Of a DNA stretch of 56,514 bases, positions 52,287-56,311 are shown piece after piece. Location: NCBI GenBank assembly GCA_012838915.1, contig DUOI01000021.1, positions 1-56,514 on the forward strand. The letters run 5' to 3'. This DNA is from Clostridiales bacterium. Lineage in GTDB: Bacteria > Bacillota > Clostridia > Caldicoprobacterales > DTU083. How positions within the stretch are numbered: position 1 is the stretch's first letter; the number at the start of each line of letters is the position of its first letter. The notes beneath the pieces were generated by a model. The model searched no databases. It worked only from the letters and a program-made list of their open reading frames with translations, and had not been told where the DNA came from. Both the position numbers and the translations under genes were made by a program.

Positions 52287-53948
52287 ATGCCCGGCAAAAT
52301 AAGGATAAACTTTAACGGCAAAAATATCGAAAGCCCAGAAGGAATCACTTTGCAGGAGCTGGTTTCGCAGCATATGATGGATTCCGAGCAGCCGCCGGTG
52401 GTGGCTGCCAAGGTGGACAATCGCATGAGAGAGCTGACCTATGCTCTTAAGCAGGACTGCACAGTAGAATCCATTGATCTGTCCATGAAAGACGGTGAGC
52501 GAATCTATACGCGGAGCCTGGTCTTTCTGTTTCTCCGGGCCTGCAGGGAATTGTTCCCGGATTGCTATGTAACCGTGGAGCACTCCTTTGGAGGAGGCTT
52601 ATATTGCGAAGTTCATGGATGTGTGGCTCTCAGCCCCCTGGTAACAGAGCGTATTGAAGAGCATATGCGTGCCATTGTGAATATGGATGAACCCTTTGAG
52701 AAGAAAGATGTTCCCATGGAAGAGGCCAATAAAATTTTCCTTCAGCAGGGATTAAAGGATAAAGTGGAAGTAATGAAATACCGCAAGGAAGATACCATGA
52801 ATTTGTATCAATGCGGAGATGTAATAGATTACCTGTATGGATATATGGTACCTTCCACCGGATATTTGAAGAAATTTGGCTTGAAATTTTATCTGCCCGG
52901 TGTCATCCTGCAATATCCAAGCTGCGAGGACCCGATAAGAGTCCGTCCCTTTCAAGATAATCCAAAGCTATTTACAGTATTCCGACTGGCTGAAAAATGG
53001 TCTGCTGCTATGGGAATTCGCAATGTGGCAGATTTGAACAGGTGCATTGAGGAAGGGCGGGCTTCGGATTTGATTCGCATCAGCGAAGCATATCAGGAAA
53101 AGCAGATAGGAGCAATAGCAGACCGCATTACTCAGCATGCGGACGCTGTGCGGATGATTCTCATTGCCGGCCCTTCCTCTTCTGGAAAAACCACCTTTGC
53201 CCAGAGGCTGAGGGTACAGCTGATGGTGAACGGCCTGCATCCGGTTCCCATTTCAATGGACAATTATTATCTCGACCGGGATCAGGTATCGGTTGATGAT
53301 AATGGAGAACAGGATCTGGAATCCATAGAAGCCATCGATTTGAAACTGTTCAATGAACAAATGACTCAGCTGATTCAAGGCCAGGAAGTGGAGATTCCTC
53401 ATTACAATTTTTTAACCGGTAAAAGGGAGTGGGTAGGACATGTGATTAAATTGTCCAAGGATCAACCCATAATTGTGGAAGGAATCCACGGGCTGAATGA
53501 AAAGCTGACGGAAATGATCCCGGCGGAAAATAAATATAAAATCTATATCAGTGCATTAACCCAGCTAAACGTAGATGATCATAATCGGATTCCTACAACC
53601 GATGCCAGGCTTATCCGTCGGATGGTGCGGGATTACCAATTCAGGGGTACGCCTATAGAGGATACCCTGGCCATGTGGCCTATTGTCAGAAGGGGAGAGG
53701 AGAAAAACATATTTCCCTTCCAGGAATCTGCTGATATTATGTTTAATTCAGCCCTGCTGTATGAATTGGCGGTTCTCAAGCCCTATATTTTACCCCTGCT
53801 GGAAAATATAACGGAAAGTCACCTTTATTTTTCTGAAGTAAACCGGTTGAATAAATTCCTGAAATATTTCCTGGATCTGGATTCCAGGGATATTCCCAAT
53901 AATTCCATATTAAGAGAATTTATAGGGGGCAGCACCTTTGAAAAATAG
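52287..53948 (+). CDS. TGS-domain uridine kinase-like protein
   Basis: 553 residues. N-terminal TGS-like domain (about 1-65), a ThrRS/AlaRS second-additional-domain-like part (about 70-200, HSFGGGLYCEV), a linker, then a uridine kinase/phosphoribulokinase domain (about 285-490) with Walker A AGPSSSGKTTFAQRL, SMDNYYLDRD and IVEGIHGLNE. The kinase part resembles Udk, which phosphorylates uridine and cytidine; the tRNA-synthetase-derived front suggests a different or regulated substrate. The fusion recurs in Firmicutes and some other bacteria. ATG with AAAGGAGA upstream. Monocistronic, between two terminators or promoters. Confidence 0.87.
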   Translation: MPGKIRINFNGKNIESPEGITLQELVSQHMMDSEQPPVVAAKVDNRMRELTYALKQDCTVESIDLSMKDGERIYTRSLVFLFLRACRELFPDCYVTVEHSFGGGLYCEVHGCVALSPLVTERIEEHMRAIVNMDEPFEKKDVPMEEANKIFLQQGLKDKVEVMKYRKEDTMNLYQCGDVIDYLYGYMVPSTGYLKKFGLKFYLPGVILQYPSCEDPIRVRPFQDNPKLFTVFRLAEKWSAAMGIRNVADLNRCIEEGRASDLIRISEAYQEKQIGAIADRITQHADAVRMILIAGPSSSGKTTFAQRLRVQLMVNGLHPVPISMDNYYLDRDQVSVDDNGEQDLESIEAIDLKLFNEQMTQLIQGQEVEIPHYNFLTGKREWVGHVIKLSKDQPIIVEGIHGLNEKLTEMIPAENKYKIYISALTQLNVDDHNRIPTTDARLIRRMVRDYQFRGTPIEDTLAMWPIVRRGEEKNIFPFQESADIMFNSALLYELAVLKPYILPLLENITESHLYFSEVNRLNKFLKYFLDLDSRDIPNNSILREFIGGSTFEK

Positions 53949-53977
53949 TTTACAATTTATCTGTCCATTGGTATAAT
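53949..53977 (+). promoter_or_regulatory. strong sigma-A promoter before the CNNM gene
   Basis: TTTACA (53949-53954), exactly 17 bases, TATAAT (53972-53977), with an extended TGG before the -10. Transcription would start near 53984, giving a leader of about 187 bases. Confidence 0.82.
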
Positions 53978-54010
53978 GTACGATAATATATATACTAATA
54001 TCAAGGTGGT

Positions 54011-54091
54011 GGGTAATTCGTGGACGATGGCCCTTGTAGTACAGCCTGCTATTGGAAAACTAAGGTTTACGCAATGAGACAATGAATTCCC
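54011..54091 (+). promoter_or_regulatory. candidate riboswitch aptamer (class not recognised)
   Basis: The leader folds compactly. Closing stem: GGGTAATTCG (54011-54020) with TGAATTCCC (54083-54091), one bulged U. Internal stem: CCTTG (54032-54036) with TAAGG (54061-54065), stacked on a hairpin TAGTA-CAGCC-TGCTA (54037-54051). The 3' side of the closing stem is also the 5' arm of the terminator at 54077, so formation of this fold should prevent termination. I do not recognise a known class; a 22-codon leader peptide (GTG at 54009) is a less likely alternative. Confidence 0.6.
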
Positions 54092-54132
54092 TTGTTAAAG
54101 GTTTCTTTGGCCGGGGTTTGTTGTCTTTTTTT
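54077..54132 (+). terminator. attenuator-type terminator in the CNNM leader
   Basis: A 14-base stem, 54077-54090 with 54113-54126 (four G-U pairs), a 22-base loop, then seven T residues. It stands 38 bases before the gene start, so it would stop transcription of the gene it precedes unless the competing upstream fold forms. Confidence 0.75.
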
Positions 54133-54170
54133 CTATTAACCTATTATTTTTCCATGGAGGGCGAGAGGTT

Positions 54171-55466
54171 TTGCTTTTGAATATCCTGATTATCATTATT
54201 CTGATTATTTTAAACGCTTATTTTGCCGGTTCGGAGATGGCATTGGTATCCATTAACGATACCAAATTAAGGATGATGGCGGAATCCGGGGATAAGAAAG
54301 CTGAATCAGTTAAGCAATTGCTGAGTGAACCCAGTAAATTTTTATCCACTATACAGATTGGGATAACTTTGGCCGGCTTCCTGTCCAGTGCATTTGCATC
54401 CGAAGCGTTTGCCGACAGGCTGGTAGCGTGGATACTGGCAAGAGGGGTCGGAATTTCTGCTGCTGTGCTTAAGCCTGTTGCAGTAATTTTAATTACCTTT
54501 ATCCTGTCTTATTTTACCCTGGTGTTTGGAGAGTTGGTACCCAAGCGGCTTGCAATGCAGCAAGCGGAGAAGCTGTCTCTTAAGGTGGTAGGACCCCTGC
54601 GTTTACTTTCAGCCATTACCTCTCCCATTGTCAAACTGCTTACTGTGTCTACCAATTTTTTTGTCAGACTGGCAGGAGGAAATCCCTATGCCGATGATGA
54701 AGAGGTAACGGAAGAAGAAATACGCATGCTGATAGATGTAGGGGAAGAAAAGGGAGCCATAGACGAAATCGAAAAGCAGTTCATCAACAATGTTTTTGAC
54801 TTCGATGACAAGTCAGCAGCAGATATTATGACCCACAGAACCAGAGTGGCTGCGATTCCGGCTGACTCCAGCCTGGATGACATTGTGGAATTGCTCAATG
54901 CTGAAAAATACACAAGAATACCTGTTTATGAGGATTCCATCGACAATATTATAGGTATCCTCCATGTAAAGGATTTGCTTATGTATCTTACCAATAACGG
55001 TATGCAAGACTTTGATATTAAAAAGCTAATCCGCATGCCGTATTTTGTACCGGAATCCAAAAAACTGAATGATTTGTTCCGGGAACTGCAGATTAAAAAA
55101 ATCCACATGGTTGTTGTGGTGGATGAATATGGCGGTACTGCAGGCATTATTACCGTGGAGGACCTGCTGGAGGAAATAGTTGGTAATATCTTCGACGAGT
55201 ATGATGAAGAGGAATACAAATATGAAAAAGTGGATGAATCCACCTATCTTTTCGACGGTTCTATCAGCCTGGAGCAGGTATCGGAGCTGATCAATGTTAT
55301 GTTGCCGGTGGATGATTATGATACTCTCAGCGGTTATGTTATAGGCCAGCTGGGTCAGATTCCTAACGAAGGGGAAAAACCCATAGTGGAGATGGACAAT
55401 CTGGTGTTCAAGGTAGAAGAGATTGAAGACAAAACCATATCCAGAATTAAAGTCTGCAAAGCATAA
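54171..55466 (+). CDS. CNNM/HlyC-CorC family membrane transporter
   Basis: 431 residues. DUF21/CNNM membrane domain (about 1-190: NAYFAGSEMALVSINDTKLRM, FVLSYFTLVFGELVPKRLAMQ-like region), two CBS domains (about 205-330: DIMTHRTRVAAIPADSSLD, IIGILHVKDLLMYL, MVVVVDEYGGTAGIITVEDLLEEIVG) and a C-terminal CorC_HlyC domain. Relatives such as staphylococcal MpfA export magnesium; the older name hemolysin is misleading. TTG start after GGAGGGCGAGAGG. Its leader carries a putative riboswitch. It overlaps the DUF368 gene by one base. Confidence 0.88.
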   Translation: MLLNILIIIILIILNAYFAGSEMALVSINDTKLRMMAESGDKKAESVKQLLSEPSKFLSTIQIGITLAGFLSSAFASEAFADRLVAWILARGVGISAAVLKPVAVILITFILSYFTLVFGELVPKRLAMQQAEKLSLKVVGPLRLLSAITSPIVKLLTVSTNFFVRLAGGNPYADDEEVTEEEIRMLIDVGEEKGAIDEIEKQFINNVFDFDDKSAADIMTHRTRVAAIPADSSLDDIVELLNAEKYTRIPVYEDSIDNIIGILHVKDLLMYLTNNGMQDFDIKKLIRMPYFVPESKKLNDLFRELQIKKIHMVVVVDEYGGTAGIITVEDLLEEIVGNIFDEYDEEEYKYEKVDESTYLFDGSISLEQVSELINVMLPVDDYDTLSGYVIGQLGQIPNEGEKPIVEMDNLVFKVEEIEDKTISRIKVCKA

Positions 55467-56311
55467 TGGTTTTGAAAGAACGGGGGAAACATGTGGTTGA
55501 TTTTTTTAAGGGCATAGTCATCGGAATGGGTGCCGTTGCACCCGGTGTCAGCGGAGGCACACTGGCTGTTATATTGGGTATTTACGAGAAAATCACCAAG
55601 GCCATAGCCAATTTGTTTCATGATTTCTGGAAGAAGGTAAAGGAGTTTTTCCCATTGGCCTTGGGTGGCGCAGTCGGAGTATTGGGGTTCAGCAATATTA
55701 TCAATTATTTGTTTAATAACCATGAGCTGGAAGTGAAATACCTTTTTATCGGGTTGATGATCGGCACCTTCCCCTCGCTGAAAAGGCAGGCTGACAGAAA
55801 GGGCTTTAAATTTTGGTATCTGATTCCCTTTATGCTCACCCTGGCTGCAGCCGTCATACTTTCCCCCCAGATGGGCAACATAGCAGGAGATATCGCAGTA
55901 ACCGAAGCCCATTTCCCGCTTCTGGTTCTCTGCGGTGTTATTATTGGATTTGGCACCATTGTACCGGGGATAAGTGCTTCCTTCATTCTCATGTATCTGG
56001 GCACCTATGGAATCCTGATGGAGGGAATAGCCCTGCTGAAACCGGATGTACTGTTCCCTGCCGGCATAGGTTTTGTGATCAGTGTCCTGGCCTTTGCCAA
56101 GCTGATCAATATGTTGTTTAATAAAGTCTATGGTTTCACTTATTATGCCATATTCGGCTTAACCACAGGATCCGTTCTTGCTATTTTCCCCGGTTTTGGA
56201 GCCGGATGGCGTTATGTGCTTTGTTACCTGCTGTTGGCTGGGGGATGCATTGCTTCCTATTTTTTAAGCAACCTGGAAAAAGGCAGACTAAAAAAGCAGG
56301 ATGGTACATAA
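55466..56311 (+). CDS. DUF368 membrane protein (PopT-like undecaprenyl-phosphate translocase)
   Basis: 281 residues with about eight helices. The two conserved half-repeats GMGAVAPGVSGGTLAVILGIYE (near residue 20, seen in part) and FGTIVPGISASFILMYLGTYG (near 150) define DUF368. Recent work assigns DUF368 (PopT) and DedA (UptA) proteins to flipping undecaprenyl phosphate back across the membrane for wall synthesis. The ATG at 55466 overlaps the CNNM stop (TAATG), so the two are co-translated. A general role in envelope recycling is inferred by family. Confidence 0.85.
   Translation: MVLKERGKHVVDFFKGIVIGMGAVAPGVSGGTLAVILGIYEKITKAIANLFHDFWKKVKEFFPLALGGAVGVLGFSNIINYLFNNHELEVKYLFIGLMIGTFPSLKRQADRKGFKFWYLIPFMLTLAAAVILSPQMGNIAGDIAVTEAHFPLLVLCGVIIGFGTIVPGISASFILMYLGTYGILMEGIALLKPDVLFPAGIGFVISVLAFAKLINMLFNKVYGFTYYAIFGLTTGSVLAIFPGFGAGWRYVLCYLLLAGGCIASYFLSNLEKGRLKKQDGT

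Follow-up and report, generated by a model that had tools for sequence, protein, structure and literature searches.

A conserved leader peptide before a predicted Mg2+ exporter gene in a Clostridiales bacterium suggests a ribosome-read transcription attenuator

How Mg2+ export is switched on in Gram-positive bacteria is largely an open question, and no regulator of CNNM/MpfA genes is described in the literature searched. The window analyzed here, the whole 56,514-nucleotide stretch of contig DUOI01000021.1 of a Clostridiales bacterium, raises this question at a single locus, where a promoter and a gene for a CNNM transporter are separated by a leader that ends in a terminator. Is the leader read as a folded RNA or by a ribosome? 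We suggest that the region is probably a ribosome-read transcription attenuator before a Mg2+ exporter gene, in which Mg2+ is sensed through early destabilization of the ribosome. The features on which the argument rests are as follows.

53949 to 53977, + strand: sigma-70 type promoter, TTTACA-17-TATAAT with an extended -10 (TGGTATAAT); pattern scan, 11 of 12 matches
54003 to 54011, + strand: ribosome-binding site of the leader ORF (AAGGTGGTG), 8 nt 5' of its start codon; from the sequence
54020 to 54085, + strand: leader ORF of 21 codons with a GTG start and a UGA stop, MDDGPCSTACYWKTKVYAMRQ; frame kept in homologs
54020 to 54034, + strand: acidic/proline start M-D-D-G-P, the proposed ribosome-destabilizing (Mg2+-sensing) segment; from residue conservation in leaders
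54077 to 54085, + strand: final codons and stop, AGA CAA UGA (R-Q-stop), identical with the first nine bases of the terminator 5' arm; from the sequence
54077 to 54132, + strand: intrinsic terminator with stem 54077-54090/54113-54126 and U tract 54126-54132; from folding
54171 to 55466, + strand: CNNM/CorB-type predicted Mg2+ exporter of 431 aa, TTG start, GGAGGG site at 54156-54161; Pfam and PDB match
55466 to 56311, + strand: coupled PF04018 gene (DUF368, undecaprenyl-phosphate translocase-like); ORF list, Pfam 4.3e-39

The original prediction for this region, an ON-type attenuator with promoter, leader, and intrinsic terminator before a transporter gene, is borne out in its layout. The promoter, in which TG precedes the -10 element, keeps its position in an alignment of seven related genomes of the same family. 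The 14-bp terminator and the seven T that follow it are recovered by folding (-22 kcal/mol for the hairpin in a per-locus scan) and are kept in seven of seven family genomes. The assignment of the downstream genes also stands. The transporter has the Pfam domains PF01595 (CNNM, 1.1e-53), two CBS, and PF03471 (CorC_HlyC, 7.6e-22), its closest solved structure is that of archaeal CorB (PDB 7m1t, 3.6e-55), and the start of the DUF368 gene overlaps its stop by one base. CorB and MpfA relatives function in Mg2+ export or Mg2+ tolerance (PMC12421838). A Mg2+ exporter and a lipid-carrier translocase-like gene are here placed under one switch. Upstream, a uridine-kinase-like gene occupies 52287-53948, and the promoter sits between it and the leader ORF. 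That ORF, which fills the supposed aptamer, was overlooked in the original prediction.

Comparison with homologs establishes the leader as a conserved coding ORF, which is predicted to be translated. Its codons run GTG GAC GAT GGC CCT TGT ... ATG AGA CAA TGA. The frame is shared by all seven aligned homologs, with indels in multiples of three, a fixed MD(D/E)GP start and RQ end, and N-terminal changes that are almost all synonymous; overall dN/dS for the middle of the peptide is only moderately low. Its ribosome site reads RGGTGGTG in seven of seven family members and AGACARTGA is invariant within the family, while other families have different but good ribosome sites such as GGAGGTGG. Across 43 leaders, residue 2 is acidic in 88%, residue 3 is acidic in 95%, and residue 5 is proline in 32, proportions that are only descriptive because the first search filter used outside the order required acidic residues; neither Pro-5 nor an R-[P/A/Q] end was part of that filter. 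The conserved residues are encoded by varying synonymous codons (GAC/GAT and CCT/CCG/CCA/CCC), so it is the peptide that is kept and not the RNA. None of the 43 leaders has a run of codons for a single amino acid of the kind looked for in amino-acid attenuators (trp/his type).

The leader is distributed well beyond the family. We surveyed regions upstream of CNNM orthologs in 30 genomes of the order and found a leader ORF before 17 of 18 close orthologs (at least 57% identity), spread over four families between which the leader DNA otherwise cannot be aligned (for example MDDNPGSKTGNQNAENMH, MDDSPGGLWNNYSIWLLFKRNRNQKIGYYIRA, and MDGNSDEEDYSKALLDLFLKAKVCLKPFYYPRP). In the sole close ortholog lacking a leader (L035, genome G009), the CNNM gene directly follows the uridine-kinase-like gene, with no promoter, leader, or terminator. 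Beyond the order, where the DNA again cannot be aligned, at least six additional family-level groups and named taxa have leaders built to the same plan, among them other Clostridia, Erysipelotrichaceae, Bacillales MAGs, and Paenibacillus. The peptide starts M-[D/E]-D-x-P and often ends YY-x-R-[P/A], and its stop falls a few bases into a terminator. Leaders from the class and from named genomes include MDDIPGHIRSSKALCGLLKTKSRIKTPFYRRP and MDEYPADIRCSNAHWMLLRSKGSGKVGYYRRP, and others are those of Peptococcaceae UBA2264 (MDDNPGDRRSSKEYW...), a Bacillales MAG (MDDEPGETLSIK...FYHRSP), an Erysipelotrichaceae member (MNDDPGDEDSN...), and Paenibacillus timonensis (MSDSDDPESS..., MSDSDDPESSNTVQPKNNRFGIGGVQA). 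In family f32, the leader before CNNM hardly varies among three loci (L089, L096, and L097; MDDGPSCRQCNALVICRLHGRLNL), and no terminator was found there.

Together with a ribosome site, the start motif is present in 31 of 177 distinct CNNM upstream regions, 29 of which have true leaders and two of which (L140 and L200) are ordinary coding starts; dinucleotide shuffles gave a mean of 0.15 per set and the reverse strand gave 0. A leader of the M-[D/E]-D-x-P kind is absent from many CNNM genes of Bacillaceae, Paenibacillus, and gut Clostridia in the set and from CNNM paralogs of the 36-41% group (L050, L052, L053, and L055-L058). The wide set of leaders was obtained through CNNM orthologs rather than through a leader DNA pattern. 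Because leader DNA diverges, a strict leader pattern matched only four times in 391 genomes of the class, all in the same family. An eighth match in the leader-DNA search (L008), weak and 32 bases long, was rejected as unrelated. A short-motif scan of the order returned, besides the CNNM leaders, mostly ordinary starts of long genes, and in the genome of the window it returned only the leader at 54020 and one match on another contig that resembles a CDS fragment.

The position of the leader stop codon relative to the terminator is also conserved. Of the 37 leaders that have a stop codon and for which a terminator is predicted, 23 place the stop between -5 and +13 of the first hairpin base, compared to a mean of 9.8 when leader lengths were permuted (0 of 10,000 permutations reached 23). 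With one locus per group, 13 of 23 are in this range versus 6.6 permuted (P = 0.0009), and 10 loci from several families share an offset of exactly +7. Comparison across loci establishes a stop codon in the 5' arm of the predicted terminator as a conserved geometry. Other arrangements exist. The ORF reads right through the terminator in L170 and in L047 and L049 (genomes G008 and G011), the latter two being distant CNNM loci (41-43% identity) with a 51-codon leader (MDDSSGPEPGPGRQ...) that crosses the terminator and T run. L149 and L177 lack a terminator, and the stop of their acidic leader ORF overlaps the CNNM start (ATGA), a version suited to translational coupling. The read-through and ATGA layouts are other ways for leader translation to decide synthesis of the exporter.

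Conservation of frame and geometry suggests that a translated leader peptide very probably controls the terminator. The 21-codon peptide would be translated while the mRNA emerges. A ribosome completing it would wait at the stop codon with its leading edge at about 54095 (stop in the A site) and cover the 5' arm of the terminator, such that the hairpin would not form and transcription would continue into the exporter and DUF368 genes. If the ribosome were instead lost early, at codons 3-5, its footprint would end near 54047, the terminator would fold, and the exporter would be OFF. That the signal is Mg2+, acting through early ribosome destabilization, has a slightly better than even prospect, judged by analogy with enterobacterial leaders. 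Low Mg2+ would cause drop-off at the Asp-Asp-Gly-Pro start and high Mg2+ would allow completion. We infer ribosome occupancy, destabilization by MDDxP, Mg2+ as the signal, and the sign of the response, which is predicted, from the position of the ribosome relative to the arm and from acidic/proline precedents, to be OFF when Mg2+ is low and ON when it is high. For an exporter, ON at high Mg2+ is the physiologically sensible sign.

The closest precedent is MgtL, the leader of mgtA in E. coli and Salmonella, likewise a short acidic/proline ORF before a Mg2+ transporter gene; when Mg2+ is low the ribosome is lost from it prematurely, the sensing event that is also proposed here (PMC12421838, PMC11282234). 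In E. coli MgtL, acidic residues and proline early in the leader destabilize the ribosome at low Mg2+ (PMC12421838, PMC11282234), and the destabilizing motif is EPDP (PMC11282234). In MgtQ, Asp2 and Glu5 act in destabilization (PMC8092293). The consequences differ, since mgtA encodes an importer and abortion or pausing keeps Rho away and turns the gene ON, whereas here the gene encodes a predicted exporter, the terminator is intrinsic, and abortion is expected to turn it OFF. We claim no sequence homology between MgtL and the leader in the window. In addition, EPDP and DPEE are the motifs tested in E. coli, where double acidic residues alone are insufficient (PMC11282234), and MDDxP matches neither of them exactly, its order differing from that of EPDP, which counts against the Mg2+ reading.

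In B. subtilis, ribosomes are also stalled by Asp-Pro and by charged stretches. Coupling of ribosome and RNA polymerase is weak in this species, so the ribosome would have to catch up, perhaps by way of an RNA polymerase pause; we looked for a conserved pause motif in support of such a pause and found none. Ribosome-mediated attenuators nevertheless do exist in B. subtilis. The bmrB-bmrCD and yxjB leaders resemble the one here in being ribosome-mediated attenuation systems of Bacillota but, unlike it, respond to ribosome-stalling antibiotics and control drug-resistance genes (PMC4191407, PMC6851288).

A leader peptide has also been linked to a CorC-domain exporter. In Salmonella and E. coli, YoaL precedes mgpA (yoaE), which is upregulated at high Mg2+, and translation of YoaL raises MgpA (PMC12421838). 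YoaL overlaps yoaE and thus works by translational coupling, MgpA has a TerC rather than a CNNM membrane domain, and YoaL itself, 52 codons long (MDRHRRHFSIRP...), has a non-acidic start unlike the leader here. We considered E. coli YoaL as a possible relative and rejected it because its start is not acidic. In layout, YoaL is resembled by L149 and L177.

Considered across species, the chances are even that Bacillota have a widespread class of M-[D/E]-D-x-P leaders in which ribosome stability reports cytoplasmic Mg2+ to a Mg2+ exporter, with an outcome the reverse of that of MgtL, and which is read by an intrinsic terminator in certain species and by translational coupling in others, the acidic start being located in yet others at the N-terminus of the exporter itself. 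The class is apparently undescribed in the open-licence literature searched, in which we found no description of a leader peptide, attenuation, or riboswitch for CNNM/MpfA genes. If the class is real, the ribosome, as the cell's most basic Mg2+-dependent machine, would serve to gauge Mg2+ for import as well as for export in phyla far apart, and the leader here and MgtL would be independent inventions with opposite outcomes. More such genes could be found by a recognizable signature, an M-[D/E]-D-x-P leader whose stop codon lies in a terminator arm.

Possible, yet unlikely, is that the signal is read at the other end of the peptide. As an arrest peptide, the leader would stall the ribosome at the stop through its C-terminus (often F/Y-Y-x-R-P/A; here M-R-Q) in response to another signal and so block the terminator. 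A ribosome stalled at the stop would be in precisely the position to block the hairpin. An R-[P/A/Q] end occurs in 25 of the 43 leaders and [F/Y/H]-x-R-[P/A/Q] in 17, counts that are descriptive and partly confounded with the terminator arm, to which part of the conservation of the C-terminal codons is owed. Several leaders have other ends (MH, KD, LI, and NL), and residues 2-5, for which a pure arrest peptide would have no use, are more widely kept than the C-terminus. TnaC of E. coli is a leader peptide that ends in R-P-stop and holds the ribosome at its stop codon. Unlike the leader here, TnaC is arrested by tryptophan, acts on a Rho-dependent terminator, and has no acidic start. An arrest peptide could also be combined with early destabilization, the acidic start being the sensor and the C-terminus the brake; a YYxRP-stop sequence may contribute a pause or itself act as the main sensor.

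It is less probable still that the leader is a general sensor of translation, in which ribosomes following close behind RNA polymerase turn the exporter ON and neither the peptide nor Mg2+ has a specific role. The geometry alone permits this. The leader pyrL of pyrBI in E. coli is the studied case of an advancing ribosome preventing an intrinsic terminator hairpin from forming in this manner (PMC5021804), as also proposed here, but in pyrL it is UTP that is sensed, via pausing of RNA polymerase, and there is neither an acidic start nor a metal transporter. Such a sensor leaves unexplained why M-[D/E]-D-x-P is kept across families that have unrelated leader DNA and differ in their synonymous codons.

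The aptamer at the center of the original prediction, a metal- or metabolite-binding riboswitch, is now very improbable. In agreement with the earlier failure to match known consensus sequences, Rfam searches at gathering and permissive thresholds (to E 10) found no riboswitch and nothing else apart from one chance snoRNA hit. The fold of the 158-nt leader is no better than that of dinucleotide shuffles (z -1.26; 25 of 200 shuffles were as good), and the minimum free energy structure contains the terminator and lacks the proposed aptamer. Apart from the terminator, RNAalifold on the seven homologs yielded just one 4-bp GGAC/GUCC hairpin, mismatched in two sequences, and the consensus contains no conserved antiterminator hairpin. 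The bases of the proposed closing stem (54011-54019/54084-54091) exist and overlap the terminator arm, so the two could be mutually exclusive as was claimed, but the stem is not supported as a structure; its pairs are formed in 40 of 56 cells, the same count as when the partner is slid by one base. For the inner helix proposed within 54032-54065, 40 of 49 cells are paired, its two central pairs are broken in three and five of the seven sequences, and no clear compensatory change was found among the seven. Covariation among orthologs, on which the aptamer had been staked in advance, is seen in neither the closing stem nor the inner helices. The shuffles, RNAalifold, the one-base slide, and the lack of covariation largely rule out an aptamer stabilized by an ion or metabolite, and the leader ORF accounts for the conservation. 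Since the bases folded as an aptamer are codons of a peptide that is kept where DNA is unalignable, the sensor is most likely the translating ribosome with its nascent peptide rather than an RNA aptamer. A caution for similar predictions is that a conserved leader in which stems overlap can turn out to be a small ORF instead of an aptamer.

Least probable is a small functional protein encoded by chance beside the terminator of the preceding uridine-kinase-like gene, without attenuation: such proteins are common and the terminator could stop upstream read-through, but the promoter separates that gene from the ORF, the ORF always precedes CNNM, and the offset between stop and terminator is conserved.

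In some genomes, an acidic start is found on the CNNM protein itself. At least two of the first eight residues are acidic in 29 of 87 leaderless CNNM proteins versus 1 of 39 with a leader, a complementary pattern that is not independent proof because the N-terminal tail of CNNM may be acidic for reasons of membrane topology; the related sequences compared also do not count as independent cases. Judging from these N-termini, the acidic start has apparently shifted between the leader and the main gene. A parallel is E. coli CorC (YbeX), a CorC-domain protein of a Mg2+ efflux pathway that, in an account citing Chadani 2021, is likewise tied to a destabilizing sequence, located in the protein itself rather than, as in the window, in a separate leader (PMC12421838). 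Three leaderless CNNM proteins of Clostridia (L196, L200, and L205) have such a CorC-like start on the exporter, MDDPDPAGN, MDDLPG, or MDDPGPN, and several other leaderless ones start MSDDGSIP, MDGDLW, or MEDG. A second group of CNNM genes in the same genomes (L055, at G000:C50:3684-4892, and L050-L058) is leaderless, and its proteins have an LDSDSIWR or LDPDGTWQ start just before the first membrane helix.
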